NCBI RefSeq assembly: GCF_036013935.1
Contig: NZ_CP107902.1
Location: forward strand, 8,465,001 to 8,529,000
Source: Streptomyces sp. NBC_00461
Lineage (GTDB): Bacteria > Actinomycetota > Actinomycetes > Streptomycetales > Streptomycetaceae
DNA: 64,000 nt
Direction: 5' to 3'
A program made the position numbers and the translations under genes. The notes beneath the pieces are model-generated. The model saw nothing but the letters and a program-made list of their open reading frames with translations. It did no database searches and had not been told where the DNA came from. This document shows positions 19,249 through 62,788 of the stretch, piece after piece (position 1 is the stretch's first letter; each line of letters starts with the position of its first letter).

Positions 19249-19778
19249 ACGTGAACCGGCTGGACCGCGGTGAACTGCACGCGCGTGTGGAGGAGTTGGC
19301 GGACCTCCTGGTCGACACCGTGGACGACGGCGCCTCCGTCGGCTTCCTCGCACCCCTCGACCGCGCGGAGGCGCGCGCCTGGTGGAAGCAGCGCGCCGTG
19401 GGCGTCGCCGCCGGGCAACTCGCCATGTGGGCGGCGTACGACGGGCACCGGGTGGTCGGCACCGTCAGCCTGGCCTTCCCGGACAAGCCCAACAGCCGCC
19501 ACCGCGCCGAACTGGTCAAGCTGATGGTGCACCGGGGCGCCCGAGGACGGGGTCTCGGCCGCAGGCTCCTGGCCACCGCCGAGGACGCGGCCGCGGCGGC
19601 CGGCATCACGTTGTTGCACCTGGACACGGAGACCGACAGCCTTGCCGAGGGGCTGTACCGCTCGGCGGGCTGGACCCGGATCGGCGCGATACCGGACTAC
19701 GCGGCCGCCCCGGACGGTGTGTTGAGGCCGACGTCGATCTACTTCAAGCAACTGAACTCCGACGCTCTCACCAGGTGA
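19245..19778 (+). CDS. GNAT-family N-acetyltransferase
   Basis: A 177-residue acetyltransferase. The acetyl-CoA binding motif A is clear as VHRGARGRGLGRRLL, preceded by the beta strand AELVKLMV and followed by LYRSAGWTRIGAIPDY. The acceptor substrate is unknown. The GTG start at 19245 overlaps the stop of the XRE-cupin gene, so translation is coupled and the regulator probably controls this acetyltransferase. Such pairs occur widely in Streptomyces and may modify a small toxic amine. Confidence 0.88.
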   Translation: MNVNRLDRGELHARVEELADLLVDTVDDGASVGFLAPLDRAEARAWWKQRAVGVAAGQLAMWAAYDGHRVVGTVSLAFPDKPNSRHRAELVKLMVHRGARGRGLGRRLLATAEDAAAAAGITLLHLDTETDSLAEGLYRSAGWTRIGAIPDYAAAPDGVLRPTSIYFKQLNSDALTR

Positions 19779-19808
19779 TTGTCAGTGGGAGCGGCTACGG
19801 TGCGAGGC

Positions 19809-20168
19809 ATGTCGGATGCCGAAGACGTACGCCGTATCTGCCTTGCCCTGCCGGACACGACGGAGAAGATCGCCTGGAGCATGCCCACGTTCCGGGTCGC
19901 GGGGAAGATGTTCGCCACGCTGCCCGAGGACGAGACCTCCATCGCCGTGCGCTGCCCCAAGGAGGAGCGCGACGAACTGGTGCTGGCCGAACCGGAGAAG
20001 TTCTGGATCGCCGACCACGAGGCACAGTTCGCCTGGGTGAGAGCCCGGCTCGCCTCGATCGACGACGAGGGCGAACTGCGCGACATCCTCGCCGACTCCT
20101 GGCGCCAGGCGGCGCCGCCCCGACTGCTCGACGCGCACCCGGAGTTGGGCCTCCCGGGGCAGAGCTGA
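19809..20168 (+). CDS. MmcQ/YjbR-family DNA-binding-like protein
   Basis: A 119-residue protein of the MmcQ/YjbR family with the usual features: VRRICLALPDTTEKIAWSMP at the N-terminus, FRVAGKMFATLPEDE, and DSWRQAAPPRLLDAHPEL at the end. The fold resembles a DNA-binding double wing, but the function is not established. The ATG at 19809 lacks a Shine-Dalgarno and is preceded by TACGGT at seven nt, suggesting a leaderless mRNA. Confidence 0.8.
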   Translation: MSDAEDVRRICLALPDTTEKIAWSMPTFRVAGKMFATLPEDETSIAVRCPKEERDELVLAEPEKFWIADHEAQFAWVRARLASIDDEGELRDILADSWRQAAPPRLLDAHPELGLPGQS

Positions 20169-41638: not shown

Positions 41639-42778
41639 TCAGGTGGTGCCGGACAGGCGGTAGACCCGGCGGGCATTGTGTGCTCCTGCCCACTCGGCGA
41701 TGCGCAGTGCGTCGGGCAGGCTCAGTTCGTCGGCGTCCACCCGGTCCTGCAGCAGACCGGCCAGACCCTGGCGGAAGGCGAGCGCGCCCAGACAGTAGAA
41801 CTCGGCAACACCGTACGCGTCCGAGCTGTACAGCAGCTTGCGGAACGGCGTGATCTCAAGGGCCTCCTCCAGGACGGCACGGGCCCGCACCGGCCCGACG
41901 TAGTGAAGGGTGAGGCCCACATCCAGGTACACGTGCTCGAAGACCGCGGCCAGGTAGGCGGCCTGGCGCTGGTAGGGCCAGCAGTGCAGCAGGAGCACCG
42001 GGATCGTGCCGCTGGTCAGATGCAGCCAGTCGGTGAGGTGGGTCGGGTCGACCCGGTGCAGACGGATGTCGTTGTCGCCGAAGCCGGTGTGGAGCTGGAG
42101 AGGGAGGCCGAGGTCGACCGCGGTCCACAGCAGATGCCGTACGAGCACCGGATCGTCGAGCCGGCCACCGCGCGCCGACCAGCGCCGGGCGGCCGCGGTG
42201 ACCTCCGCGTCCGAGGGGCGCACGGGGTCCAGGTCGAAGCCGGTGCGGTAGGCGGCCACGGACTTGACCGCCACCACACCCGGCCGCCCCACGGCCTCCC
42301 GCGCGGCCGTGCGAAACGCGTCGGCGTACTCGTCGGGCTCGACCCCCTTCGCCGCCACCGCCTCGGCGACGCCCTCCAGCCGTACGACCTCGTACGCCGT
42401 GCCGCCGGCGATCCCGGCCAGCTGCGCCGGAGTGGTGAGGCCCTCCGGCGCGTACCCGGTGTCCACGCAGAACGTGCCCGTCCCCGAGGCGGCGAGGAAG
42501 CGGCGCTGTACCTCGTGCCGGCCCAACTCGGCCCGCCGGGCCAGGTACACGTCGGCCGACGCGTGCCGCGGCAGGTCGAGCAGCGGGGCGCAGTGGCGGC
42601 GGACGGCCACGCCGACGGGGCTGTCGAAGGGCGAGATCCCGGGCCATGCGGCACCCTCGGTGATCAGCTCCTCGAAGCCCTCCCGGGTCAGGTCCGCCGT
42701 GACCACACCATGGCAGTGGTGGTCCACCAACGGCAGCGCGGCGAGCGCCTCCCGGACAGCCCCGCCGACCGCGCCCAC
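41639..42778 (-). CDS. Amidohydrolase (FluG-like N-terminal type) linked to a glutamine-synthetase-like gene
   Basis: A 379-residue TIM-barrel metal-dependent hydrolase. The N-terminal HxH metal motif reads LVDHHCHGVV, with later ligands in LQLHTGFGDND, LLLHCWPY and LLYSSDAYGV. Fungal FluG and some bacterial proteins fuse this kind of amidohydrolase to a glutamine synthetase; here they are separate genes one nt apart. The GTG start at 42778 follows the stop of the GS-like gene directly, so both are coupled. Likely it hydrolyses or opens an amide related to the GS-like product; the exact substrate is unknown. Confidence 0.82.
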   Translation of the reverse strand: MGAVGGAVREALAALPLVDHHCHGVVTADLTREGFEELITEGAAWPGISPFDSPVGVAVRRHCAPLLDLPRHASADVYLARRAELGRHEVQRRFLAASGTGTFCVDTGYAPEGLTTPAQLAGIAGGTAYEVVRLEGVAEAVAAKGVEPDEYADAFRTAAREAVGRPGVVAVKSVAAYRTGFDLDPVRPSDAEVTAAARRWSARGGRLDDPVLVRHLLWTAVDLGLPLQLHTGFGDNDIRLHRVDPTHLTDWLHLTSGTIPVLLLHCWPYQRQAAYLAAVFEHVYLDVGLTLHYVGPVRARAVLEEALEITPFRKLLYSSDAYGVAEFYCLGALAFRQGLAGLLQDRVDADELSLPDALRIAEWAGAHNARRVYRLSGTT

Positions 42779-42779
42779 G

Positions 42780-44183
42780 TCAGTACTTCCAGCGGTACGC
42801 CGCCGCGACCCGCTCGTCGTCCAGCCCGTGGACCGCCGCGATCTCCCCGTGCCGTACGGCGATCACCGCGTCCGCGAGGACCGGCCCGAGCGCGGCCCGC
42901 AGCCGTTCGTCCTTGCGGAACTCCTCGACGGACTCGATCAGCGAGGTCGGCAGGCGCCGTACGCCTCGGGCGGCCGCCTCCGTGGGGTCGAGACGGGCCG
43001 GATCGCCGGTGATCTCCTCGGGCAGGGGAGCGGACGACGTCAGGCCCTCCAGCCCGGCCGAGAGGAGACAGGCGAGGGCCACATACGGGTTGGCGGCCAG
43101 GTCGACCGGCTTCACCTCCAGGTTCGCGGCCTGGTCGCGCAGGCCCGCCGTCCCCGTGACGACCCGCAGCGCGGCCTCGCGGGTCTCGCGGCCCCACGCG
43201 GTGAACACCCCGGCCCACTGGGAGGGTTTGAGCCGCAGATAGCTCGCCGGGCTGGGCGCGGTCACGGCCGTGAGAGCCGGGAGGTGACCGAGCACTCCGG
43301 CCGTGAACGACTCGGCGTCGGCCGTCATGCCGTACCGGCCCTCACCGCGGGCGTGCAGGTTGACGCCCTCACGCCAGGCGGAGAGGTGGACATGGCCGCC
43401 GTTGCCGACTCCCTGGGCGAAGACCGCCGGGGCGAAGGAGACCACGAGCCCGTGGCGCCGGGCCACCGCCCGGATCGTCTGCCGTACCAGCACGCTGCGG
43501 TCGGCCGCCGCCACCGGGTCGAGGGCGCCCACCGAGATCTCGAACTGCCCGGCCGCGTACTCGGGATGGATCTGCTCGACGTCCACACCCTGCGTGGCCA
43601 GCGCGGCCAGCAGGTCGGCGGTGCAGTCGCTCAGTTCGACCTGGCGTGTCGCGCTGTACGCGGGCCCCGAGAGCGCGGGGACGAACTCGCCGCCCTCCGC
43701 CGGGCCTTCCCCGACGGCCCACTCGATCTCGATGGCGGCCTTGAAGGTGAGGCCGTGCCGTTCGGCGGCATCGGAGACGATGCGGCGCAAGGCGGTGCGG
43801 CTGCACCCGGGATGCGGCTCGCCCTCCTGCGTGATCCGGTCGACCGGCGCCCACGCCCAGCCGGGCTGCCCGGCCAGGGCGACGAGTTGGTCGAGGTCGG
43901 GGTAGAGGCGCAGGTCGCCGTCCGGGGAACCCAGGACGTCGGTGGAGACGATGGAGTCGTTCGCCAGGAACGTGTCGAACACCGGTGACATGCCGACGCC
44001 CCAGGCAGCGGCCGAGGCGAGCCTGGCCGTCGGGACCGACTTCACCCGGGCCACACCCGCGGTGTCGACATAGGACAAGACGACGCCGTGCACCCCTTGC
44101 CCGGACAGCTCTTCCGCGAGCGCCCCGGCCCGCTCGACGTCACCGGGGCGTCCGCCGGGGACGGGGTCGGCAAGGGTGGTCAT
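42780..44183 (-). CDS. Glutamine-synthetase-like enzyme (gamma-glutamylamide ligase type)
   Basis: A 467-residue member of the glutamine synthetase family. It keeps the metal and substrate motifs AAIEIEWAV, NGGHVHLSAW and NPYVALACLLSAGLEG, and the ATP-region KPSQWAGVFTAW. It lacks the adenylylation tyrosine loop of housekeeping GlnA. Paralogues of this type in Streptomyces ligate glutamate to polyamines or ethanolamine rather than ammonia. Coupled to an amidohydrolase gene, it resembles a split FluG, so a gamma-glutamylation/deamidation route for an amine is the best guess. Which amine is open. Confidence 0.85.
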   Translation of the reverse strand: MTTLADPVPGGRPGDVERAGALAEELSGQGVHGVVLSYVDTAGVARVKSVPTARLASAAAWGVGMSPVFDTFLANDSIVSTDVLGSPDGDLRLYPDLDQLVALAGQPGWAWAPVDRITQEGEPHPGCSRTALRRIVSDAAERHGLTFKAAIEIEWAVGEGPAEGGEFVPALSGPAYSATRQVELSDCTADLLAALATQGVDVEQIHPEYAAGQFEISVGALDPVAAADRSVLVRQTIRAVARRHGLVVSFAPAVFAQGVGNGGHVHLSAWREGVNLHARGEGRYGMTADAESFTAGVLGHLPALTAVTAPSPASYLRLKPSQWAGVFTAWGRETREAALRVVTGTAGLRDQAANLEVKPVDLAANPYVALACLLSAGLEGLTSSAPLPEEITGDPARLDPTEAAARGVRRLPTSLIESVEEFRKDERLRAALGPVLADAVIAVRHGEIAAVHGLDDERVAAAYRWKY

Positions 44184-46998: not shown

Positions 46999-47162
46999 CG
47001 GCCGGGAAGGACGAGCGCGAACGAGGGCTTGGGCACGCCTTGCTACCGGCGAGTACCCCGCCCTGTCACCTCCCTGACACCTGAGGTACGGTCCCTCCCG
47101 AGTCCGCAAGCACCCACAGGTCGCGGACCGTTACGGACGGTGTGGACGGGGGCGGCGGAAGC

Positions 47163-48572
47163 ATGGGATTCCACCTGGTCGACGAGGGCGGCGAAGGGCG
47201 CGCGGAGCCCGACGGCACGCCGCTGGAGGCCCTCGCCCCCGAGCCCCTGCTGACCCGGGACTACGAGACGCGCCCAGGGCTCGTCTACGAGCGGCTGCGC
47301 GAACGCCACGGCCCGGTCGCGCCGGTCGATCTGCTGGGCGTGCCCGCGTGGCTGGTGCTCGGCTACCGCGAGTCGCTCCAGGTCCTCCAGGACGACGCCG
47401 GCTGGCCCAAGGGACTGGAGAACTGGCGGGCTCGCACGGAGGGCCGGGTGCCCGCCGACTGGCCGCTCGGCCCCTCCCTGGAGGTCAACCACGTGCTGAT
47501 CCAGGGCGGCCCCGGCCATCGCACCCTGCGCGGCGCCTGGGACGTGGCCCTGCGCCCCTTCCAGGATCCGCGCAACCCGCAGGCCAAGCGGCTCAAGTCG
47601 GCCGTCACCGGCTGTGCCGACGAGCTGATCACCCTCCTCGCGCAGGGCGGCCGTACGGGCCTGGCGGACCTGTCGGCGCAGTTCTCCCGTCCCCTGCCGC
47701 TGATGGCGGCGAGCCATCTGCTCGGCTTCCCCGGCTCGCAGGGCGACGAGGCCCTGATGGACATGTGGCGGGTACTGGACGCCGGCCCGGACGCGGAACC
47801 CGCACTGGCACGCCTGCTGGTGACGCTCTCCGAACTGGCCGCCGCCAAGATCGAGAAGCCGGGCGACGACTTCCCCTCCCACCTGCTCGCCGCCCACCCG
47901 GACCTCTCGGTCGACGCGCTGGCCCGGGAACTGTTCATGCTGCTGGGCATGACCTCCGACCACGTCGGCATCCTCATCTCCAACACCGTCGTCGAGGTGA
48001 TCTCCGGGGACGCCGACGGCGGAGTGCGTACCTCCCAGTCCGCCGGCATGGTCCGGGAGACCATGAACCGCGTGGTCATGCGCAAGCCGCCGCTGGTCAA
48101 CTTCGTGCCGAGGTTCGCGGCCGAGGACAGCCGGCTCGGGAACTACACCATCCGCGCCGGTGACCCCGTGTGGGTCTCGCCCGCCGGCGCGCACGCCGAC
48201 CCGCTCTTCGCCGGCCGGATGGCACCGGGCTCCAGCATCAGCAGCCGGGCCCATCTGTCATGGGGTGCGGGACCCCGCCAGTGCCCGGCCCGCGAGCTGG
48301 CGTCCACCATCGCGGCGGCGGGCGTGAGCCGCGTCTTCGAACGGTTCGGGCACCTGGAGCTCGCCCTGCCCGTCGACCAACTGCCGTGGCGCTCCTCGCC
48401 GTTCATGCGGGGACTGCGCTCGCTGCCCGTGCGCTACGAGCTCTCCGGACCGGCGCTGCCGGTACCGACGGCGCCCGCCCCCGGCCTGCCCGACGCACCC
48501 GCCGCACCGGACCAGGCCGCCAGGCGGCGATCCTCGCTGTGGCGGTACCTCGCGGGACTGATCCGGTCCTGA
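47163..48572 (+). CDS. Cytochrome P450 without the ExxR motif (CYP157-like)
   Basis: A 469-residue cytochrome P450 of the bacterial soluble type. The heme-binding cysteine is in HLSWGAGPRQCPARELA; the usual Phe before the glycine is Trp. The I helix reads MLLGMTSDHVG without the acid-alcohol pair, and the K helix reads VRETMNRVVMRKPP, so the normally invariant ExxR arginine is replaced by asparagine (E-T-M-N). Loss of ExxR is a known trait of the CYP157 family of Streptomyces, often paired with conservons. No ferredoxin gene is next to it. Substrate unknown; catalytic competence uncertain. Confidence 0.85.
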   Translation: MGFHLVDEGGEGRAEPDGTPLEALAPEPLLTRDYETRPGLVYERLRERHGPVAPVDLLGVPAWLVLGYRESLQVLQDDAGWPKGLENWRARTEGRVPADWPLGPSLEVNHVLIQGGPGHRTLRGAWDVALRPFQDPRNPQAKRLKSAVTGCADELITLLAQGGRTGLADLSAQFSRPLPLMAASHLLGFPGSQGDEALMDMWRVLDAGPDAEPALARLLVTLSELAAAKIEKPGDDFPSHLLAAHPDLSVDALARELFMLLGMTSDHVGILISNTVVEVISGDADGGVRTSQSAGMVRETMNRVVMRKPPLVNFVPRFAAEDSRLGNYTIRAGDPVWVSPAGAHADPLFAGRMAPGSSISSRAHLSWGAGPRQCPARELASTIAAAGVSRVFERFGHLELALPVDQLPWRSSPFMRGLRSLPVRYELSGPALPVPTAPAPGLPDAPAAPDQAARRRSSLWRYLAGLIRS

Positions 48573-48625: not shown

Positions 48626-48644
48626 TGTTCAATGGTGTTGAACA
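48626..48644. promoter_or_regulatory. Operator candidate of the XRE-cupin gene
   Basis: TGTTCAA-TGGTG-TTGAACA is a perfect 7+5+7 inverted repeat, 24 bp before the GTG at 48669. Its position over the promoter region suggests that the XRE-cupin protein binds here and controls itself. No copy was found before the operon at 49408. Confidence 0.6.
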
Positions 48645-48668
48645 TGTCCGTCGCGGAGAGGAGCCGCC

Positions 48669-49355
48669 GTGTCTCCTGCCGCCGTGCCGCCCGTCGGCGC
48701 GCGCATCCGGCAGGCCCGCCTCGCGAAAGGCGTGAGCCTGCGCGCCCTCGCGCGGGAGGTCGGCGTCTCCGCGAGCCTGGTCTCCCAGATCGAGACCGGT
48801 AAGAGCCAGCCGTCCGTGAGCACGCTGTACGGCATCACCACCGCGCTGTCGATATCCGTGGAGTCGCTGTTCGACGCCTACGAGGACGAGATCGCCGCGC
48901 CCCCGGTCGTGACCGCGTCCGCCGGATCCGGCGCTCCCGCTGTTCCGGCCACCGTCCTGCACGCCCTCGCCGCCTTCGCCGCCGACCCGGGGCGGCGCAT
49001 CGGACCGCTGGTCACGCCGGGGGAGCGGGAGGTGCTGGAGCTGGACTCGGGGGTCGTGTGGGAGCGGCTGGGGCATGTTCCGGGCGCGGACGTCGACTTC
49101 CTGCAGGTGACATACCGGCCCGGTGGCTCCTCCTCAAGCTCCGGCGGCCTGATGCGCCACGCGGGCACCGAGTACGGCTGTCTCACCTCCGGCGCGCTCG
49201 TCCTCACCCTCGGCTTCGACGAGTACACGCTGGGTCCCGGCGACGCCGTCTGCTTCGAGTCGACCACCCCGCACCGCTACCGCAACGACGGCGCCGAGCC
49301 GGCCGTAGGAGTGTGGTTCGTGTTCGGCCAAGGGGCCGGCCAAGACGTTCAGTAG
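48669..49355 (+). CDS. XRE-family regulator with cupin domain
   Basis: A 228-residue regulator. The XRE helix-turn-helix is at residues 10-65 with IRQARLAKGVSLRALAREVG and VSQIETGKSQPS. The C-terminal cupin has GTEYGCLTSGALVLTLG and FESTTPHRYRNDG, which would sense a small molecule. It starts at a GTG with AGGAG upstream. It lies directly before the seven-gene catabolic operon and is probably its regulator; similar XRE-cupin proteins control amine, purine or amino-acid catabolism. A palindrome covers its own promoter. Confidence 0.9.
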   Translation: MSPAAVPPVGARIRQARLAKGVSLRALAREVGVSASLVSQIETGKSQPSVSTLYGITTALSISVESLFDAYEDEIAAPPVVTASAGSGAPAVPATVLHALAAFAADPGRRIGPLVTPGEREVLELDSGVVWERLGHVPGADVDFLQVTYRPGGSSSSSGGLMRHAGTEYGCLTSGALVLTLGFDEYTLGPGDAVCFESTTPHRYRNDGAEPAVGVWFVFGQGAGQDVQ

Positions 49356-49358
49356 CAC

Positions 49359-49387
49359 TTGACACTCGCGCGGCACGGTCGTCTACT
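49359..49387 (+). promoter_or_regulatory. Promoter of the seven-gene operon
   Basis: TTGACA (49359-49364) and TCTACT (49382-49387) are spaced by 17 nt and lie 20 bp before the ATG at 49408. This places the transcription start just before the first gene and separates the operon from the XRE-cupin gene. Confidence 0.65.
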
Positions 49388-49407
49388 CCGAAGTGGGGGT
49401 GGTCGCC

Positions 49408-50742
49408 ATGGCGATCCGTACGTTCGGACCCAATGCAGTCGACTGGGAAGAGCGCATCGACCTGGACCGGCTCCGCAAGGAGCGGCTGGCCAGGCTCCAC
49501 GAGACGCTGAACGGCTCGTCGCTCGGCGCCGTGCTCAGCTTCGACTTCGCCAACATCCGCTACATGACCGCCACACACATCGGCACCTGGGCGATCGACA
49601 AGCTGATCCGCTTCGCCCTGCTGGTGCGCGGCGGCGAACCGGTCGTCTGGGACTTCGGCTCCGCCGCCCGCCACCACCAGATCTACAACCCCTGGCTCGA
49701 CTACAGCGACGGCAAGGACGGCCCGCCCACCGGCGCCCGGGCCGGCATCTCCACTCTGCGCGGCGCCTTCCACCCGGACGCGGGGATCGCCGAGGACGTG
49801 GCCCGCAAGATCGCCACCGAACTGCGCGAACACGGTCTCGCGGGCGAGCCGCTCGGCATCGACGTCGCCGAGATGCCGATCCTGGCCGCCCTGCGCGCCG
49901 AGGGCATCGACGTCGTCGACGGCCAGCAGGTCTTCCTGGAGGCCCGCCGCACCAAGACCCGCGACGAGATCTCCCTGCTCACCCAGGCCTGCGCGATGGT
50001 GGACGCGGCGTACGAGGAGCTGTACGGCTACCTCCGCCCGGGTGTCCGCGAGAACGAGTGCGTCGGACTCGTCAGCAAGGTCCTCTACGACCTCGGTAGC
50101 GAGTACGTCGAAGGCGTCAACGCCATCTCCGGCGAACGCTGTTCACCCCACCCGCACGTCTACAGCGACCGCCTGATCCGCCCCGGCGACCCCGCCTTCT
50201 TCGACATCCTGCACAGCCACCTCGGCTACCGCACCTGCTATTACCGCACCTTCGCCGTCGGCAGCGCCTCGCGCGCGCAACGGGACGCCTATGTCCGCTG
50301 CCGCGAGTACATGGACCAGGCCATCGCCCTCGTCCGGCCCGGCGCCACCACCGCCGACATCGTCCAAGTCTGGCCGTGCGCCGAGGAGTTCGGCTTCGCC
50401 GACGAGACCGCCGCCTTCGCCCTGCAGTACGGCCACGGGGTCGGCCTGTCGATCTGGGAGAAGCCCATCTTCAGCCGTCTGGTCTCCCTCGACCACCCCG
50501 AAGTCCTCCAGGAGGGCATGGTGTTCGCCCTGGAGACCTACTGGCCGGCGGCGGACGGCTGGTCGGCGGCCCGTATCGAGGAGGAGCTGGTCGTCACCGC
50601 CGACGGCTGCGAGGTCATCACCAAGTTCCCGGCCGAGGAACTGCTGGTCGCGGGCCGCAAGTACTGGACGGTCGGCGGCGAGCTCAACACCCGCCGCGAG
50701 TCCCAGTCCCACCTCAACACCCGTACCAACGGGAGCACTTGA
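49408..50742 (+). CDS. M24-fold hydrolase (Xaa-Pro peptidase/DddP-like) with altered metal site
   Basis: A 444-residue protein with the creatinase/prolidase fold: an N-terminal domain (VLSFDFANIRYMTATHIGTW) and the pita-bread domain. Of the five M24 metal ligands, the first Asp is in FFDILHSHLGYR, but the second is Cys in GYRTCYYRTF instead of Asp. His is kept in YGHGVGLS, Glu in MVFALETYW and in RIEEELVV. The second His region reads IWEKP. Layout and N-terminal motif resemble the DMSP lyase DddP more than a peptidase. It opens the operon; its stop overlaps the E1-alpha start (TGATG). Confidence 0.8.
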   Translation: MAIRTFGPNAVDWEERIDLDRLRKERLARLHETLNGSSLGAVLSFDFANIRYMTATHIGTWAIDKLIRFALLVRGGEPVVWDFGSAARHHQIYNPWLDYSDGKDGPPTGARAGISTLRGAFHPDAGIAEDVARKIATELREHGLAGEPLGIDVAEMPILAALRAEGIDVVDGQQVFLEARRTKTRDEISLLTQACAMVDAAYEELYGYLRPGVRENECVGLVSKVLYDLGSEYVEGVNAISGERCSPHPHVYSDRLIRPGDPAFFDILHSHLGYRTCYYRTFAVGSASRAQRDAYVRCREYMDQAIALVRPGATTADIVQVWPCAEEFGFADETAAFALQYGHGVGLSIWEKPIFSRLVSLDHPEVLQEGMVFALETYWPAADGWSAARIEEELVVTADGCEVITKFPAEELLVAGRKYWTVGGELNTRRESQSHLNTRTNGST

Positions 50743-51722
50743 TGGTCGACCGCGACGAACTCCTCACGCTCTACGAGCAGATGGCCGTCATCCGCCGTAC
50801 GGAGAAGGCCGCCCACGACCTGTTCCTGTCCGGTCTGGTCAAGGGCACCACCCACCTCGCCGCCGGCCACGAGGCGATCGCCGTCGGCACGAGCGCCGCC
50901 CTGCGCCCCGACGACTACGTCTTCGCCACCTACCGCGGCCACCACCACGCGATGGCCCGCGGCGCCACCCCCGAGGAGTGCCTCGCCGAACTCATGAGCC
51001 GCGCGACCGGGTTGTGCAAGGCCAAGGGCGGCTCCATGCACCTCACCAAGGCCGACGCCTTCATGCTCGGCTCCTACGCCATTGTCGGCGCCCACCTGCC
51101 GATGGCGGTCGGCGCCGCCTGGTCGGCCCGGCTGCGCGGGACACAGCAGCTGGCCGTCGCCTTCTTCGGCGACGGCGCCACCAACATCGGCGCCTTCCAC
51201 GAGGCACTCAACCTGGCCGCCGTATGGAAGCTGCCCGTGCTGTTCGTCTGCGAGAACAACCTGTACATGGAGTACACCCCCATCGCCGACGTCACGGCGG
51301 TGGCCCGGCCCGCGGCCGACCGCGCCCCCTCGTACGGCATCCCGGGCGAGGTCGTCGACGGCAACGACGTGGTGGCTGTCCGGGACGCGGTGGCCGCCCT
51401 CGCACGGCGGGCCCGGGCCGGAGACGGGCCCGCCCTCCTGGAGGCCGAGACCTACCGCCACTTCGGGCACAGCCGTGCCGACCCGGCCACCTACCGCCCG
51501 GCCGAGGAGGTCGAACGCTGGCTCAAGCACGACCCGTTGGACCTCGCGCGCGGACGCCTCGTCGAGCTGGGGGTGCCCGAGGAGACGGTCACCGCGGCCG
51601 ACGAACGCGCCCGTGACGTCGTACAGAAGGCGGTCCAGGCGGCGAAGGCCGCGCCGCCGGCCGATCCGGGTGAGGCGCTGACCGACGTGTGGGCGGACGG
51701 GGGTGCGGCGTGGCGGACGTGA
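50742..51722 (+). CDS. TPP-dependent 2-oxoacid/acetoin dehydrogenase E1 alpha subunit
   Basis: A 326-residue E1 alpha subunit. The TPP motif is FFGDGATNIGAFHEALN ending in CENN, and LCKAKGGSMHLTKADAFML with HSRADPATYRPAEE match acetoin or pyruvate dehydrogenase E1 alpha. With the beta subunit it would decarboxylate a 2-oxo acid or cleave an acyloin. No E2 (lipoyl) or E3 gene is in the operon, so the acyl acceptor must come from elsewhere or be different. Start and stop are coupled to the genes on each side. Confidence 0.9.
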   Translation: MVDRDELLTLYEQMAVIRRTEKAAHDLFLSGLVKGTTHLAAGHEAIAVGTSAALRPDDYVFATYRGHHHAMARGATPEECLAELMSRATGLCKAKGGSMHLTKADAFMLGSYAIVGAHLPMAVGAAWSARLRGTQQLAVAFFGDGATNIGAFHEALNLAAVWKLPVLFVCENNLYMEYTPIADVTAVARPAADRAPSYGIPGEVVDGNDVVAVRDAVAALARRARAGDGPALLEAETYRHFGHSRADPATYRPAEEVERWLKHDPLDLARGRLVELGVPEETVTAADERARDVVQKAVQAAKAAPPADPGEALTDVWADGGAAWRT

Positions 51723-52690
51723 TCAGCTATCGGGAGGCGGTCGCCGAGGGCATCGCGCGGGAGATGCGCCGGGACCCGGCCGTCGTGTGCCTCGGCGAGG
51801 ACATCGGCGAGGCGGGCGGGGTGTTCAAGACGACCGCCGGGCTGCTGAAGGAGTTCGGGCCCGAACGGGTGTGGGACACGCCCATCTCCGAACAGGCCAT
51901 CGTGGGTGCGGCGATGGGCGCCGCGATGACCGGGATGCGGCCGGTCGCGGAGATCATGTTCTCGGACTTCCTGGCCTGTTGCTGGGACTACCTCGCCAAC
52001 GAGATACCGAAAGTCCGTTACATGACGGGTGGTCAGGTCACCGTCCCGCTCGTGGTGCGCACCGCCAACGGCGGCGGGCTCGGCTTCGGCGCCCAGCACT
52101 CGCAGGCCACGGAGAACTGGGCGCTGACCGTCCCGGGGCTGAAGATCGCCGCCCCCGCCACGCCCGCCGACGTCATCGGCATGATGGCGGCGGCGATCCG
52201 CAGCGACGACCCGGTCGTCTTCTTCGAGCACAAGGGACTGCTGGCGAGCAAGGGAGCCCCCGCGCCGCCGGGGCACGTGGTCGAGCTGGGGCGGGCGGCC
52301 GTCGTGCGCGAGGGCGCCGACGTGACGCTGGTCGCCCTCGCCTCCATGGTGCCGCTGGCGTTGAAGGCCGCCGACGTCCTCGCCGGCGAGGGCATCGGCG
52401 TGGAGGTCGTCGACCTTCGCTGTCTCGTTCCGCTCGACGTCTCCACCGTCCTCGCCTCTCTCGACAGGACCTCGCGGCTCGTGACCGTCGAGGAGAACCC
52501 CTACCAGGGAGGCTGGGGCGCCACCCTCGTGTCGGTCGTCGCCGACGAGGGGTTCGCACTGCTGGACGCGCCCGTGCGCCGGGTGGCGGGGGAATGCGTG
52601 CCGCTGCCGTTCGCCGACGTACTGGAGGAACAGGTCATCCCCACCGTGGACAAGGTCGTGGCGGCCGTCCGGAGTCTCGCCGCGTACTGA
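51710..52690 (+). CDS. TPP-dependent 2-oxoacid/acetoin dehydrogenase E1 beta subunit
   Basis: A 326-residue E1 beta subunit. It shows ISYREAVAEGIAREMRRDP, LGEDIGEAGGVFKTTAGL, TPISEQAIVGAAMGAAMTG with the catalytic glutamate, and the C-terminal VTVEENPYQGGWGATLVSVV. The GTG at 51710 overlaps the E1-alpha end by 13 bp; a GTG at 51719 is an alternative. It works as an alpha2beta2 complex with the previous gene. It lies upstream of an amidohydrolase gene with 31 bp between. Confidence 0.9.
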   Translation: MADVISYREAVAEGIAREMRRDPAVVCLGEDIGEAGGVFKTTAGLLKEFGPERVWDTPISEQAIVGAAMGAAMTGMRPVAEIMFSDFLACCWDYLANEIPKVRYMTGGQVTVPLVVRTANGGGLGFGAQHSQATENWALTVPGLKIAAPATPADVIGMMAAAIRSDDPVVFFEHKGLLASKGAPAPPGHVVELGRAAVVREGADVTLVALASMVPLALKAADVLAGEGIGVEVVDLRCLVPLDVSTVLASLDRTSRLVTVEENPYQGGWGATLVSVVADEGFALLDAPVRRVAGECVPLPFADVLEEQVIPTVDKVVAAVRSLAAY

Positions 52691-52721
52691 ACACCCCTGA
52701 CACCCCCGAGGAGGAAGCGCG

Positions 52722-54122
52722 ATGACCGATCGGATACTGCTGCGCGCGGGGCACGTGATCTCGATGGATCCCTCCGTCGGGGAACTGCCGAAGGGAGACG
52801 TCCTCATCGAGGACGGCAGGATCGCGGCCGTGCGGCCGGAGATCAGTGCTGACGCCGAGGTCCTCGACATGACCGGGCGCATCGTGATCCCCGGCTTCGT
52901 CGACACCCACCGCCACACCTGGGAGGCCCCCATCAGGGGCGTCGCCCCGGACGCCACCCTGGACGACTACTTCGTCGACATCCTCGACACCTTCGCCCCG
53001 CTGTACACCCCCGAGGACGTGTACGCGGGCAACCTCGCCGGCGCTCTGGAGTGCCTGAACGCCGGCATCACGACACTGGTCGACTGGTCCCACATCAACA
53101 ACACACCCGAGCACCCGGATGCCGCGATCCAGGCGCTCGGCGAGACCGGCATCCGCGCCCAGTACGCCTACGGCAGCGCCAACACCTCCCTCGCCGACTA
53201 CTGGTTCGAGAGCAAGATCGCGATTCCCGGCGACGACGTCCGCCGTATCCGTGCCAAGCACTTCGCCTCCGACGACGGCCTGCTGACCATGGGACTCGCC
53301 ACCCGTGGCCCCGGATTCTGCGTCAACGACGTCGTCACCTCGGAGTGGACCCTCGCGCGCGAGCTGGACATCCCGATCACCGTGCACGTGGCGATGGGGC
53401 GGCTCGCCGGCCGCTTCGGCATGGTCAGGCAACTGCACGACCTGGGGCTCCTCGGCCCGGACACCACCTACGTCCACTGCTGCTACCTCAGCGAGGAGGA
53501 GTGGCGGATGGTCGCCGACACCGGTGGCACGGTGTCGATCGCGCCACAGGTGGAGACGCAGATGGGGCACGGCTGGCCGCCCGTGATGAGCGCGATCGAG
53601 CACGGACTGCGGCCCTCGCTCAGCATCGACGTCGTCACCACCGTGCCCGGCGACATGTTCACCCAGATCCGCGCGGCCTTCGGCGTCGAGCGGGCCCGGG
53701 TCAACGCGGACTGCTGGCAGGCCAACATGCCGGTTCCCAGCACCATGTTGACGGCACGTCAGATGCTGGAGATCGCCACGAGCAACGGCGCGCATGTCGC
53801 GGGACTGGAGCACCGCACCGGTTCCCTGACCCCCGGCAAGCGCGCCGACGTCGTCGCCCTCGACGCCACCGCGCTGAACATGGCGCCGGTGCACGACGCG
53901 GCCTCCGCGGTCACGCTGTGCGCGGACGTCTCGAACGTCGAGACGGTCATCGTCGACGGCGTGGTCCGCAAGCGCGACGGCAGGCTGACAGCCGACGTCG
54001 CGAGGGCCCGACGGCTCGTCGAGGAGTCCCGCGACCGGCTCCTGGCGGCGAAGGAAGCCAAGGCGCAGGAAGCGGTGGCGAAGGACGAAGCGGAGGCGAA
54101 GGAGGGGAAGCCGACCGTATGA
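52722..54122 (+). CDS. Amidohydrolase of the ATZ/TRZ (deaminase) type
   Basis: A 466-residue metal-dependent hydrolase. The metal motif VDTHRHTWE is at residues 61-69, with later histidines in ITVHVAMGRL and VHCCYLSEEE, and the aspartate in LSIDVVTTVPG. This is the layout of the ATZ/TRZ group that deaminates or dechlorinates N-heterocycles, including guanine deaminase and SsnA. The last 35 residues are Lys/Glu/Ala-rich and likely a flexible helix. GAGGAGG precedes the ATG. Its stop overlaps the bicupin start (ATGA). Confidence 0.87.
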   Translation: MTDRILLRAGHVISMDPSVGELPKGDVLIEDGRIAAVRPEISADAEVLDMTGRIVIPGFVDTHRHTWEAPIRGVAPDATLDDYFVDILDTFAPLYTPEDVYAGNLAGALECLNAGITTLVDWSHINNTPEHPDAAIQALGETGIRAQYAYGSANTSLADYWFESKIAIPGDDVRRIRAKHFASDDGLLTMGLATRGPGFCVNDVVTSEWTLARELDIPITVHVAMGRLAGRFGMVRQLHDLGLLGPDTTYVHCCYLSEEEWRMVADTGGTVSIAPQVETQMGHGWPPVMSAIEHGLRPSLSIDVVTTVPGDMFTQIRAAFGVERARVNADCWQANMPVPSTMLTARQMLEIATSNGAHVAGLEHRTGSLTPGKRADVVALDATALNMAPVHDAASAVTLCADVSNVETVIVDGVVRKRDGRLTADVARARRLVEESRDRLLAAKEAKAQEAVAKDEAEAKEGKPTV

Positions 54123-54994
54123 CCCGGCATCTGGTGCGGCGGGCCGCCGACGTGGCCGAGCCGCCGTACGACGCACACGGCTACCGGCGCCGCACGCTGG
54201 TCGGCGAGGACGACGGCAGCGTGCACACCGGCTTCGGTCTTTGCGAACTGCGGCCGGACGGTGGGGTGTCGGCGCATGTGCACTCGTACGAGGAGAGCTT
54301 CCACATCCTCGACGGGACGGCCGTCCTCGACGCGCCCGACGGCTCGTACCTCCTCGAAGAAGGCGACTACGGCATCCTCCCGGCCGGCGTCCCGCACGCC
54401 TGGCGCGGCGCCGGCGACACGGCCGCACGCTGGGCGGACATGCTCGCGCCGGTGCCACGGGCACGCTACGGGCACGACACGCAGCCCGTGCCCGACCTGC
54501 CGGCGAGGCCCCCCGCGCGCATCGACGTCCGCGACCCGCGCACCCGCTCCTTCGGCCACTTCGAGCCCGCCCAGATGGACCCGGGCAAACAGTCCCAGGA
54601 TCTCCTGACCGTCTCGGCGAGCATGCGCACCGCGCTGCTCGTCTACAGCGGCATCACGGTCAGGATGATGGTCGACAGCGACCTCGGTGCGGTCGCCTCC
54701 ACGATGTTCATGGTGCAGTACGCCCCCGACGGCGTCGCCGGCACGCACGACCACCCCTTCGAGGAGACGTACCTGTTCCTCGACGGCGAGGCGGACGCCG
54801 TGTTCGACGGCGAACGGTATCGGCTCGGGCCCGGCGACTGCGCCTGGGCGGGCGCCGGTTGCGTGCACGGCTTCGCCAACGCCGGTCAGGGGCCGCTGCG
54901 TTGGCTGGAGACACAGGCGCCGCAGCCGCCGCCGCGTCACTCGTACCGGTTCACGCGCGACTGGGAGTACCTGAGGGAGGCCCTGGAGTCATGA
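54119..54994 (+). CDS. Bicupin protein
   Basis: A 291-residue protein with two cupin domains. The first has HVHSYEESFHILDGTAV and YGILPAGVPHAWR; the second has HDHPFEETYLFLDGEADA and WAGAGCVHGFAN, so each may bind a metal. Bicupins include (S)-ureidoglycine aminohydrolase, oxalate decarboxylase and dioxygenases. Next to an amidohydrolase, an allantoin-like route is tempting but not shown. Both ends overlap neighbours (ATGA at each), so it is co-translated. Confidence 0.85.
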   Translation: MTRHLVRRAADVAEPPYDAHGYRRRTLVGEDDGSVHTGFGLCELRPDGGVSAHVHSYEESFHILDGTAVLDAPDGSYLLEEGDYGILPAGVPHAWRGAGDTAARWADMLAPVPRARYGHDTQPVPDLPARPPARIDVRDPRTRSFGHFEPAQMDPGKQSQDLLTVSASMRTALLVYSGITVRMMVDSDLGAVASTMFMVQYAPDGVAGTHDHPFEETYLFLDGEADAVFDGERYRLGPGDCAWAGAGCVHGFANAGQGPLRWLETQAPQPPPRHSYRFTRDWEYLREALES

Positions 54995-55680
54995 GCAGCG
55001 TCCTGGTCGTCGGCGGCACGTCCGGCATCGGCCGTGAGCTCGCCCTCGTCCGCGCCGAGCAGGGCGACGAGGTCGTCCTCACCGGCCGCGACCTCGGTCG
55101 GGCCGACGCCGTCGCCAAGGAACTCGGCGCCCGCGGCCTCGCCCTCGACCTGTCCCGACCACGCGAGATCGCAGGGGCGTTGGCGGACGTCGGACACGTC
55201 GACCACCTGGTCCTCGCGGGCGTCTCCCGCGACGAGAACCGGGCGACCGACTACGACATCGCCGCCGCCCTCGAACTGGTCACCCTCAAGCTCGTCGGCT
55301 ACACCGAGGTCGTGCACGTGCTGCGGCAGCGGATCACCGACGACAGCGCGATCGTGATCTTCGGCGGCCAGGCCAAGGAGCGCCCCTACCCCGGCGCGAC
55401 GACGGTCGCCACGGTCAACGCGGGCGTACGGGGACTGGTGAACACCCTCGCGGTCGAACTCGCGCCGATCCGGGTCAACGCCGTCCATCCCGGTGTCGTG
55501 GGCGACAGCCCCTACTGGCGGGACAAGCCGGAGCAGGTGCTGGCCGGTCTGCGCGCCAGGACCCCGACCGGTCGGCTCGCCACCATGGCGGACGTGGTGG
55601 ACGCCGTGGACTTCCTGCTGCGCAACAGGTCCGTCAATGCGGTGGAGTTGAGTGTGGACGGGGGGTGGCTGCTGGGGTGA
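54991..55680 (+). CDS. SDR-family protein lacking catalytic Tyr and Lys
   Basis: A 229-residue short-chain dehydrogenase-like protein. The nucleotide motif is VVGGTSGIGRELAL. Where active SDRs have Ser, Tyr and Lys, this one reads FGGQAKERPYPGATTVATVN, so the YxxxK positions appear as VATVN. It may bind NAD(P) but use other residues, or act as a non-catalytic partner. The end SVNAVELSVDGGWLLG is normal. It is coupled to its neighbours by overlapping start and stop codons. Confidence 0.82.
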   Translation: MSSVLVVGGTSGIGRELALVRAEQGDEVVLTGRDLGRADAVAKELGARGLALDLSRPREIAGALADVGHVDHLVLAGVSRDENRATDYDIAAALELVTLKLVGYTEVVHVLRQRITDDSAIVIFGGQAKERPYPGATTVATVNAGVRGLVNTLAVELAPIRVNAVHPGVVGDSPYWRDKPEQVLAGLRARTPTGRLATMADVVDAVDFLLRNRSVNAVELSVDGGWLLG

Positions 55681-56579
55681 GCGGCACGGAACCGCGCATG
55701 GCGATGAGCGACACGGAACCGCGTGTCGCGGTGATCGGCACGGGCCGGATGGGCGCGGCCATGGCGGTGCGGCTGCGCGCGGCAGGGTGCGCGGTGACGG
55801 CGTACAACCGTACGCGCGCCAAGGCCGAGGCCACCGGGGCCGCCGTCGCCGGCACGCCCCGCGAGGCCGTCGCGACGGCGGACGTCGTCCTCGTCTCCCT
55901 CGCCGACGACACGGCCGTGCGGCAGGCGTACGGCGGGGAGGACGGCATCGCCGCCGGGCTGCGCCCCGGCACGGTCGTCGTGGAGACCAGCACCGTCGCC
56001 CCGGACACGGTGACCGCCCTGGGCCCGCTCGTCGACAAGGCGGGCGCGGCCCTGCTGGACGCACCTGTCTCCGGCAGCGTCAGCTTCGTAGAACAGGGCA
56101 GGCTCACCGTCATGGCGGGCGGGGACCGGTCGGCCCTGGAGCAGGCCCGCGCCGTGCTGGACGTCCTGGCTGCCCACGTCGTCCATGTCGGCCCCGGTGG
56201 CACCGGCGCGGCGATGAAGCTGTCGGTCAACTCCCTTCTCCTCGGCCTCAACCAGGCCCTCTCCGAGGCCCTCGTCCTCGCCGAACGCGCCGGTGTGTCC
56301 CGGGAGTCGGCGTACGAGGTGTTCGCGTCCGGCGCCGCGGGTGCGCCGTTCGTGCAGTACAAGAGGGACGCGTATCTGCACCCCGAGGACGCCACGGTCG
56401 CCTTCACCCTCGAACTCGTAGCCAAGGACCTGGACCTGGTCCTCGCCCTTGCCGAACGACTGGGGGCACCCATGCAACAGGCCGCCGTCAACCGTGGCGT
56501 GGTTGCCGATGCCGTGCAACAGGGCTTCGGCGAGCGGGACTTGAGCGCCCTGGCCGACTTCCTGCGCTTCCGGGCCTGA
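55677..56579 (+). CDS. 3-hydroxyisobutyrate-dehydrogenase-like oxidoreductase
   Basis: A 300-residue NAD(P)-dependent beta-hydroxyacid dehydrogenase. It has VAVIGTGRMGAAMAVRL, the substrate motif LDAPVSGSVSFVEQG and the catalytic lysine in AAMKLSVNSLLLGLNQ. It would oxidise a beta-hydroxy acid or reduce the matching semialdehyde. Two starts are possible, the GTG at 55677 and an ATG at 55704: a 27-bp duplication repeats the SDTEPR/SGTEPR coding start. It is the last gene of the operon. Confidence 0.87.
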   Translation: MSGTEPRMAMSDTEPRVAVIGTGRMGAAMAVRLRAAGCAVTAYNRTRAKAEATGAAVAGTPREAVATADVVLVSLADDTAVRQAYGGEDGIAAGLRPGTVVVETSTVAPDTVTALGPLVDKAGAALLDAPVSGSVSFVEQGRLTVMAGGDRSALEQARAVLDVLAAHVVHVGPGGTGAAMKLSVNSLLLGLNQALSEALVLAERAGVSRESAYEVFASGAAGAPFVQYKRDAYLHPEDATVAFTLELVAKDLDLVLALAERLGAPMQQAAVNRGVVADAVQQGFGERDLSALADFLRFRA

Positions 56580-56583
56580 CAAC

Positions 56584-56610
56584 GGCCCCGGTGGCCCGAT
56601 GCCCGGGGCC
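56584..56610 (+). terminator. GC-rich hairpin after the operon
   Basis: GGCCCCGG and CCGGGGCC form an 8-bp stem around an 11-nt loop, five nt after the operon stop. The U-tract is missing (CTTCC follows), so it may end or protect the transcript. Confidence 0.5.
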
Positions 56611-61207: not shown

Positions 61208-61951
61208 ATGTCCCCCCACGTGCTGATCCTCGGCGGCACCGCCGAGGCCCGCGAACTGGCCGCCGTGCTCGCGGCACGCCCCGGCGTGCGGGTCACCACC
61301 TCCCTCGCGGGGCGCGTGACACGACCGGGCGCCCTGGCGGGAGACGTGCGCGTCGGGGGCTTCGGCGGGGCGGCAGGGCTGGCCGACTGGCTGCGTGAAC
61401 AGCACGTGGACGCCCTCGTCGACGCGACGCACCCCTTCGCCGAGACGATCACCGCCAACGGCGCGCGGGCCGCGGCGGCCAGTGGAGTGTCGTCGGTGGT
61501 GCTGCGCCGCCCCGGCTGGCGGCCGGGCCCCGAGGACCGCTGGCACCTGGTCACGTCGCTGAGCGCGGCGGCCGACGCGCTGCCGCGGTTCGGCTCCCGG
61601 GCATTCCTGACCACCGGCCGCCTCGGCCTGTCGGCCTTCGCACACCTCGCGGACATGCACTTCGTCGTACGGTCGGTGGAGCCCCCCGAGCCGCCTGTGC
61701 CGCCGCACACCGAAGTGCTGCTCGCACGCGGGCCGTTCACGGTCGCCGACGAGACGACGCTGCTGCGCGAGTACCTGATCGACGTCCTGGTCACGAAGGA
61801 CAGCGGGGGAGAGGCGACGGCTGCCAAGCTCACGGCCGCACGCCAACTCGGGCTGCCCGTCGTGGTCGTACGTCGACCGCCCCTGCCGAGGGGTGTGAGC
61901 GCGGTGTCGGACGTGGCGGGTGTCCTGGTCTGGTTGGGCTTCAACTCGTAG
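61208..61951 (+). CDS. cobK: Cobalt-precorrin-6A reductase
   Basis: A 247-residue CobK/CbiJ enzyme that reduces a macrocycle double bond of precorrin-6A with NAD(P)H during cobalamin synthesis. The N-terminal nucleotide-binding motif is VLILGGTAEARELAAVL; later VDATHPFAETITANGARA and FLTTGRLGLSAF and VTKDSGGEATAAKL are family landmarks. TACGCT six nt before the ATG indicates a leaderless mRNA. It converges with cobF, the enzyme of the preceding step. Confidence 0.92.
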   Translation: MSPHVLILGGTAEARELAAVLAARPGVRVTTSLAGRVTRPGALAGDVRVGGFGGAAGLADWLREQHVDALVDATHPFAETITANGARAAAASGVSSVVLRRPGWRPGPEDRWHLVTSLSAAADALPRFGSRAFLTTGRLGLSAFAHLADMHFVVRSVEPPEPPVPPHTEVLLARGPFTVADETTLLREYLIDVLVTKDSGGEATAAKLTAARQLGLPVVVVRRPPLPRGVSAVSDVAGVLVWLGFNS

Positions 61952-62014
61952 AGGGACAAGGGAGAAGGGAAGTCGGACACAGGCCAAGCGCCGCTTGGGC
62001 TCACTCCCTTGGGC

Positions 62015-62788
62015 TCACTCCCTTGGGTTACGGCGCAGCAGATACGTGTCCATGATCCATCCCTTGCGCTCCCGGGCCTCGGCCCGCAACCGCTCGATCC
62101 GCGGAGCGGCCTCGCCGATCGGCCCGGAGACGAGGATCTCGTCCGGAGTGCCTATGTACGCGCCCCAGTAGATGTCGATGTCCTGGTCGGCGTACTGCCG
62201 GAACGTCCGATGGGCATCCAGCATCACCACCACGTCGTCCACCCCTTCCGGGAAACCCTCGGCGAGCCGGCGCCCGGTGGTGATCTGGACGGGCCGGGCG
62301 ACCCGGTTGAGCCCCGTACGATGCCGGGCGACGAGCGCGGAGACGCTGCTGATCCCGGGCACGACGTCGTACTCGAAGGTCACGCTGCCGCGCCCCAGGA
62401 TCTCCTCCAGGATCCCGAGCGTGCTGTCGTACAACGCCGGATCCCCCCACACCAGGAACGCGCCGCTCTCGTCCTCGCCCAGCTCCTCGGCGATCAACTG
62501 CTCGTAGATGTCGGCACGGGCACTGCGCCAGTCACCGACGGCGGGGGAGTAGGCCGCACCCCCCGCGCTCCGGTCCCGCTCCGGATCCCGTGCCTCGACC
62601 ACCCGGTACGACGCCCCGTCCGGGAGGTGCGCGTCGAGCATGTCCCGGCGCAGCCGCGTGAGATCGTCCTTCACCTCACCCTTCTCGAGGATGAAGAACA
62701 CGTCCGTACTCCGCAGCGCCCTGACCGCCTGCAGGGTGAGCTGGTCGGGGTCGCCCGCGCCGATACCGATGACATGAATCTTTCGCAC
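62015..62788 (-). CDS. cobF: Precorrin-6A synthase (deacetylating)
   Basis: A 257-residue SAM-dependent tetrapyrrole methylase. The N-terminal motif is IHVIGIGAGDPDQLTLQ, and FLVWGDPALYDSTLGILEE and YDVVPGISSVSALVARH are conserved in CobF. It methylates C-1 with loss of acetate in aerobic cobalamin synthesis. The GTG at 62788 is chosen; the longer upstream frame is non-coding Arg-rich sequence. A 14-bp tandem repeat (61995-62022) covers its stop codon. It converges with cobK; no cobalamin riboswitch is evident upstream. Confidence 0.9.
   Translation of the reverse strand: MRKIHVIGIGAGDPDQLTLQAVRALRSTDVFFILEKGEVKDDLTRLRRDMLDAHLPDGASYRVVEARDPERDRSAGGAAYSPAVGDWRSARADIYEQLIAEELGEDESGAFLVWGDPALYDSTLGILEEILGRGSVTFEYDVVPGISSVSALVARHRTGLNRVARPVQITTGRRLAEGFPEGVDDVVVMLDAHRTFRQYADQDIDIYWGAYIGTPDEILVSGPIGEAAPRIERLRAEARERKGWIMDTYLLRRNPRE

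Follow-up and report, generated by a model that had tools for sequence, protein, structure and literature searches.

A conserved Streptomyces operon with altered active sites: a candidate catabolic unit with an XRE-cupin regulator gene

Which compound is handled by the genes that fill positions 48669-56579 of the DNA analysed here, and do their enzymes carry out the reactions that their family names imply? The DNA (the window, a stretch of 64,000 nucleotides) comprises positions 8,465,001-8,529,000 of the genome of Streptomyces sp. NBC_00461, which is a single contig of 10.37 Mb. A first-pass annotation had placed a regulator and seven coupled enzyme genes there, and had proposed a complete route for a nitrogen-containing substrate. 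Our analysis indicates that the operon genes very probably form one functional unit. That this unit is a dedicated catabolic operon, with a carbon-carbon cleavage dependent on thiamine pyrophosphate (TPP), is to our judgement an evenly balanced proposition, as read from the sequence.

All eight genes lie on the plus strand. A gene for an XRE-family regulator with a C-terminal cupin domain (48669-49355) is followed by genes for an M24 pita-bread family protein (49408-50742), the alpha (50742-51722) and beta (51710-52690) subunits of a TPP-dependent dehydrogenase E1 component, an amidohydrolase (52722-54122), a bicupin (54119-54994), an SDR-fold protein (54991-55680) and a beta-hydroxyacid dehydrogenase of the 3-hydroxyisobutyrate dehydrogenase (HIBADH) type (55677-56579). 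The junctions from M24 to the last gene are TGATG (1-nt overlap), a 13-nt overlap, a 31-nt gap, ATGA, ATGA and GTGA. Gene calls and family models thus agree with the gene families and the five overlapping junctions out of six given by the first-pass annotation, and the genes in its span of 48626..56610 are confirmed, while its borders shift: the regulator starts at 48669 (GTG) and the last stop codon ends at 56579. A promoter scan found no sigma-70 promoter and a terminator scan no terminator. Short overlaps are commonplace in Streptomyces operons, and the feature that goes beyond chance is the conservation of the arrangement.

This conservation was followed with a profile scan using a 17-row bicupin alignment, which gave 209 encoding loci in genome contigs. 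The best 80 were kept (78 from Streptomyces, one Nitriliruptorales metagenome-assembled genome and one Phytoactinopolyspora), a sample biased to close relatives. In the 79 Streptomyces loci, that is the window and the 78 best-matching ones, the genes for M24, E1-alpha, E1-beta, amidohydrolase, bicupin and SDR occur in the same order and on the same strand in 71. Two of the exceptions are gene-call misses, where tblastn finds the genes (L034 and L073, in the latter E1-alpha over 82%), and four are cut off by the end of a contig close to where genes are missing (L074, L075, L078 and L087); L052 is without E1-alpha and most of E1-beta, and L104 is without an M24 or regulator match. The 13-nt overlap between E1-alpha and E1-beta is kept in all 74 loci in which both genes were called. 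Measured against the Streptomyces orthologs, each of the eight genes has a median ratio of non-synonymous to synonymous substitution (dN/dS) within 0.10-0.27 (from six comparisons only in the case of the HIBADH-type gene), which points to purifying selection on the operon genes. In a survey of 61 genomes (our own and 60 relatives), orthologs of M24 (at least 84% identity), amidohydrolase (at least 73%) and bicupin (at least 57%) co-occur in exactly the same eight genomes, our own included, seven of which fall among the 37 of its genus; amidohydrolase matches at 35-48% in other genomes and M24 matches at 54-59% in two were not counted as orthologs.

The possibility left by the first-pass annotation, that the gene order is a peculiarity of this strain, is rejected, and its view of the operon as a conserved metabolic unit is upheld, for six enzymes instead of seven. 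Of the 77 Streptomyces loci in which at least 1.5 kb follows SDR, just 7 have the HIBADH-type gene (the two remaining loci lack that length or an SDR call). Since it is so rare in Streptomyces yet directly adjoins SDR in seven distant loci (L109, L110, L130, L131, L140, L141 and L142), the gene is probably ancestral and often lost, and accessory in Streptomyces.

The active sites were read from alignments to solved relatives and to orthologs, with proteins below 75% of the length of the window protein left out of the ortholog alignments. The amidohydrolase is of the COG0402 ATZ/TRZ type and belongs to the PRK08204 subfamily (637 bits, above the cut-off of 391). COG0402 deaminases have the metal ligands HxH, H, H and D, and an acid/base Glu in the HxxE motif after strand 5. 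The metal ligands are kept here, His63/His65 in 88 of 89 sequences and His222, His252 and Asp303 in 89/89. Aligned to the deaminase Glu of 7ww2 is Met225, which is Met in 86/89 orthologs with a gap in the other three; one plasmid relative has Met at this position (L176) and another a gap (L175). Without the deaminase Glu, the deamination assumed by the first-pass annotation is not borne out. M24 metallopeptidases have five metal ligands (D, D, H, E and E). In the M24 protein (PF00557, 129 bits) the second Asp, as found in prolidases, is replaced by Cys277, in 85/85 orthologs and in all eight plasmid relatives examined, one from a haloarchaeon included, and Asp266, His343, Glu376 and Glu391-393 are kept in the orthologs. 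A structure model of this protein had a mean pLDDT of 41 and was discarded. The SDR-fold protein has kept the GGTSGIG nucleotide-binding motif and has no Ser/Tyr/Lys triad: Val/Ile139 stands for Tyr and Asn143 for Lys, each in 92/92 sequences, and Gly125-Gly126 occupies the Ser region. Because the amidohydrolase is without its Glu, the M24 protein has a Cys and the SDR protein is without the triad, the family names do not predict the reactions, and neither deamination nor peptidase activity should be assumed.

Two M24 genes outside the window were noted in passing. The haloarchaeal relative (36%) shares the Cys motif and adjoins an LLM flavin oxidoreductase gene (L177, 9968-12340), and L129 encodes, at 18809-19900, another M24 protein, distinct from the first, which has a Creatinase_N domain and adjoins the HIBADH-type gene.

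Two of the other enzymes have kept theirs. The bicupin has two metal sites (motif columns HxH..E..H), of which the C-terminal one is kept in 94/94 sequences at each residue and the N-terminal one in 88-94 of 94. Its AlphaFold2 model (pLDDT 83) gives quercetin 2,4-dioxygenase as best fold match, followed by oxalate decarboxylase, at 15-18% identity. The HIBADH-type protein contains the Rossmann (PF03446) and NAD_binding_11 (PF14833) domains and the catalytic Lys181 in 19/19 sequences. The sulfolactaldehyde, threonate and HIBADH models were tried and dropped, as their cut-offs were missed.

The regulator has HTH_3 and Cupin_2 domains above cut-off, in an architecture like that of PuuR, and reaches 65 bits with the PuuR model itself, against a cut-off of 211. 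An operator-like palindrome, GTTCAATGGTGTTGAAC, lies at 48627-48643 (plus strand), 25 bp before the regulator gene, and a second operator-like site, GTTCAGTAGCACTTGAC, at 49347-49363 (plus strand) overlaps the regulator stop codon, 44 bp before M24. The 17-bp pattern GTTCARTRNNNYTKVAC covering both sites has two matches in the whole genome, both at the operon, and none for the reversed-pattern control. In the seven other operon-bearing genomes ten matches are found, of which nine fall at the operon (in G185 as judged by distance from the bicupin gene), against two for the reversed control; G001, in which the M24 match is cut by a contig end, has no match. The tenth, in G032, precedes a radical-SAM gene whose neighbour is of the ATP-grasp type and does not encode a transporter; it was considered as an extra regulon member and was taken as chance. 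Among the 70 assessable Streptomyces loci (in the other nine of the 79 the regulator or M24 gene is missing or at an edge) 51 have the pattern at the regulator, 66 have it at M24 and 48 have it at both, and there is no match elsewhere in these loci over 1.43 Mb. The strict palindrome GTTCAA-N5-TTGAAC, with up to three mismatches allowed, precedes the regulator in 70/70 loci and in 0/70 shuffles. As judged from the sites, the operon is apparently self-regulated.

More distant relatives give some indication of what the pathway may be for. In the phylum-wide sample 17 of 396 genomes, our own included, match the bicupin with an E value of 1e-40 or lower. Fifteen distant regions contain the genes in reshuffled order: M24 in 12, the E1 pair in 9, amidohydrolase in 10, SDR in 13 and the HIBADH-type gene in 12, counts that rest on single-linkage clustering at 35% identity, with some members being paralogs and some regions cut by contig ends. 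A permease, ATPase and binding protein of CUT2-like type stand beside the block in L130, L133 and L137, and the permease only in L142. Transporters of the branched-chain-amino-acid type are found in L129 and L134, an NMT1-like one in L129, a PotA-type set in L130 and an EamA gene in L138. Pfam identifies LacI regulators in L138 and L139, and cluster membership adds those in L129 and L134. Such regulators and ABC importers, near the block in several distant loci, make up a catabolic setting, in line with a degradative role. The sugar-type CUT2-like transporters and LacI regulators hint at a sugar-like substrate; RidA, amidase or flavin-enzyme genes adjoining M24 relatives on plasmids hint at nitrogen. 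Together the neighbouring genes suggest uptake of a polar compound that may be sugar-like and contain nitrogen. The nitrogen-containing substrate of the first-pass annotation is thus plausible, and we would put the chance that nitrogen is present at about one half.

A scheme can be drawn on this basis. The regulator would bind both operator-like sites and be released once the cupin domain detects either the substrate or an intermediate. The substrate, a small polar and probably nitrogen-containing compound, would enter through a transporter encoded outside the operon and be hydrolysed or opened by the amidohydrolase and the M24 protein. The bicupin, through its metal sites, might rearrange or oxidatively cleave the resulting product, and the SDR-fold protein, with the HIBADH-type dehydrogenase where present, may adjust its oxidation state. 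The E1 pair would use TPP to cleave a 2-oxo acid or an alpha-hydroxyketone, and the product would be either an aldehyde, the substrate for an aldehyde dehydrogenase, or an acyl group handed to an E2 encoded elsewhere.

Several observations weigh against a catabolic operon of this kind. Three of its enzymes are without the catalytic residues usual for their families, so that a biosynthetic, detoxifying or regulatory role is possible. The transporters beside the relatives disagree in type (CUT2-like, branched-chain-amino-acid, NMT1-like, PotA-type and EamA), and the Streptomyces operon itself has no transporter gene. The regulatory picture is also less tidy than the window suggests: a near-perfect palindrome precedes the regulator in 1/73 loci, namely the window, and before M24 GTTCAA-N5-TTGAAC, at the same mismatch limit, occurs in 1/70 loci against 3/70 shuffles, that is as a poor palindrome. 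The two sites accordingly have one half in common and not the whole palindrome. The pattern GTTCARTRNNNYTKVAC was moreover fitted on these same sites in related loci, and its presence there is partly by construction; the informative part is its absence elsewhere, rather than its presence at the operon. To these comes the E2 component, for which no E2-like tblastn match (E 1e-8, five E2 queries from our own genome; E3 not searched) was found in 96 loci, comprising the window, L031-L110 and L129-L143. Six E2 queries had been extracted, of which L169 matched E1-beta, evidently through an E1-beta frame, and was ignored, and L166 and L168 were used with no further check of their frames; one query did detect E2 in six plasmid loci. 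With no transporter gene in the operon and no E2 in the searched loci, the route can hardly be called complete, as the first-pass annotation had it.

The nearest rival departs from the proposed scheme in the E1 step only. Here the pair would be a conventional E1 of an oxidative 2-oxoacid dehydrogenase, relying on the E2 and E3 of central metabolism and making acyl-CoA, rather than an E2-free lyase with an aldehyde as product; we put its chances a little short of even. E1-alpha (PF00676, 256 bits) falls below the cut-off of TIGR03182 (335 against 394 bits), and E1-beta is above that of the PRK09212 subfamily (336 against 321 bits). His130 of E1-beta is found in 85/85 orthologs, and a residue of this type has a role in E2 acylation; its invariance argues for an E2 partner, as do the E2 and sometimes E3 genes that accompany E1 within or close to the M24 clusters of plasmids, and an E2 gene in our own genome (2712147-2712827) that has no adjacent E1-alpha match. 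In the same genome, however, E2 matches lie within 3 kb of seven of the eight clear E1-alpha genes (one partial), with the operon copy as the sole exception, the 96 loci likewise gave no E2, and an aldehyde dehydrogenase gene stands immediately 3' of E1-beta in L136 and L138, as expected where an aldehyde is released. Either E2 is borrowed from elsewhere or E1 releases an aldehyde, and we leave both standing.

Other readings concern the role of the operon as a whole. A biosynthetic or tailoring operon, in which the altered-site enzymes build a small metabolite and the regulator responds to the product, would account for the patchy distribution in Streptomyces, where 7 of 37 genomes carry the orthologs, and for the SDR protein, as triad-less SDR folds also occur in biosynthesis and PDB 6nkh, which we take to be PhqE, is among the SDR matches; the EamA gene of one distant locus, often an exporter, fits as well. 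We nevertheless regard it as unlikely, with importers and LacI regulators adjoining the block in distant relatives and with no nonribosomal peptide synthetase, polyketide synthase or other synthase among 50 annotated neighbouring proteins, many other neighbours not being annotated. A variant of the allantoin/glyoxylate (ureide) pathway is suggested by the cast of enzymes. The E. coli cluster for this pathway comprises an amidohydrolase, a bicupin, a TPP enzyme and a HIBADH-type reductase, to which the operon is somewhat alike, and the amidohydrolase would then be an allantoinase, the bicupin a ureidoglycine aminohydrolase, the TPP enzyme glyoxylate carboligase and the HIBADH-type protein tartronate semialdehyde reductase. 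Among NCBIfam models, the last scores highest with the HIBADH-type gene, and the bicupin fold matches include 1sef, 1sfn and 1sq4. The cut-offs are, however, widely missed (162 against 341 bits for TIGR01505, the tartronate semialdehyde reductase model, and 21 against 200 for the ureidoglycine aminohydrolase model ura-cupin), the amidohydrolase is a PRK08204 protein and no allantoinase, the TPP enzyme consists of an E1 pair, and the HIBADH-type gene is missing from 70/77 Streptomyces loci, so that we consider this variant very improbable. Breakdown of dimethylsulfoniopropionate (DMSP) or ectoine is more improbable still. It would have the M24 protein as DddP or ectoine hydrolase and the cupin as DMSP-lyase-like, in line with an NCBIfam ranking of M24 led by DddP (107 bits), the PepQ dipeptidase (76 bits) and ectoine hydrolase (59 bits) and with a weak DMSP_lyase cupin match (19 bits, cut-off 27), but the DddP and ectoine hydrolase cut-offs are 600 and 575, and the Asp position with its Cys is at odds with either enzyme in every one of the 85 orthologs. 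An analogy with inositol (Iol-like) genes was also considered and dropped.

It is tempting to go a step further than a catabolic operon. Tentatively, and with more doubt than confidence, the genes could represent a new degradative route across Actinobacteria for a sugar-like nitrogen compound, in which the altered amidohydrolase, M24 and SDR proteins and an E2-less E1 perform novel reactions under one XRE-cupin regulator, and in which M24, E1 and the HIBADH-type enzyme make up a shared lower module, used with other upper pathways on the plasmids of Roseobacter and Paenarthrobacter. The first-pass annotation had recognised no described pathway, and our searches of the openly licensed literature likewise returned no description of the gene set, most subscription journals lying outside those searches. 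If the proposal is right, a compact, self-contained pathway is present in dozens of Streptomyces species and other Actinobacteria, and annotations such as peptidase, deaminase and dehydrogenase are probably misleading for the operon enzymes. The cysteine-type M24 proteins of Actinobacteria, Roseobacters and a haloarchaeon might thereby receive their first function.

The surroundings of the operon were also noted. Upstream of the regulator, 47142-48572 encodes a P450-like protein (PF00067, 30.7 bits); such a gene occurs in ten clustered loci, the window included, at a varying distance, and is therefore probably outside the operon. A glutamine-synthetase-like gene at 42780-44183 (minus strand), with gamma-glutamylputrescine synthetase as best model (308 bits, below the cut-off of 650), stands beside an Amidohydro_2 gene at 41639-42778 (minus strand), possibly as a separate polyamine-type locus. 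Cobalamin-type genes, for a CbiJ/CobK reductase and a tetrapyrrole methylase, lie at 61208-62788.

For comparison with known systems, M24 matches were found in 540 plasmid records and bicupin matches in just 14, all under 60% identity. Eight plasmid regions with an M24 relative contain E1 in six and a HIBADH-type gene in five, and their M24 neighbours include RidA, amidase, flavin reductase and flavin enzymes of the LLM, HpaB or acyl-CoA-dehydrogenase fold. In the sulfonamide-degrading Paenarthrobacter, a plasmid M24 module comes with RidA and a HIBADH-type gene (L145, 15600-19002; L144, 16447-21422), and in R1 with SDR too. The M24 relatives on the SD-1 and R1 plasmids suggested breakdown of sulfonamide heterocycles, an idea that was dropped because the heterocyclic amines released from sulfonamides are treated as dead-end metabolites that accumulate, in passages of PMC10873849. 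A search of PMC9329766 for six terms gave no match.

Taken singly, the enzymes resemble known systems to different degrees. The bicupin is closest to the quercetin 2,4-dioxygenase type (YxaG), which is both its best fold match and its best PDB sequence match and shares the two intact metal sites, but at a TM-score of about 0.6, a large root-mean-square deviation and the low identity given above. The E1 pair resembles that of acetoin:DCPIP oxidoreductase and of pyruvate dehydrogenase (PDH), from which it differs in having no E2 partner found and in lying below the PDH-model cut-off. Its E1-alpha is 45-50% identical to the plasmid-cluster E1-alpha proteins, one of them annotated acoA, and 5/5 comparators have the same sub-threshold TIGR03182 pattern.

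As clusters, the closest are those on plasmids. On two Roseobacter plasmids (Phaeobacter inhibens pP92_e and Tritonibacter mobilis plasmid 3) an M24 relative, 55% identical and with the same Cys motif, is followed by E1-alpha, E1-beta, a lipoyl protein, an aldehyde dehydrogenase and E2, with SDR genes nearby and a HIBADH-type gene in the Phaeobacter region. These clusters differ from the operon in having their own lipoyl protein and E2 (in Phaeobacter E3 too) and annotated sugar ABC transporters, and in the fetched regions they have no amidohydrolase or bicupin match. On the actinobacterial plasmids (Paenarthrobacter SD-1 and R1, Streptomyces YIM 121038) the amidohydrolase and bicupin are replaced, depending on the plasmid, by RidA, amidase, VOC, flavin reductase or LLM flavin-enzyme genes; E1 alpha and beta are fused in SD-1 and YIM 121038, where E2 is present as well, and the fetched R1 region has no E1. 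These same plasmids carry an M24 protein that is 59-75% identical to that of the operon and has the Cys motif, together with a HIBADH-type gene and, in R1, an SDR protein at 55% identity.

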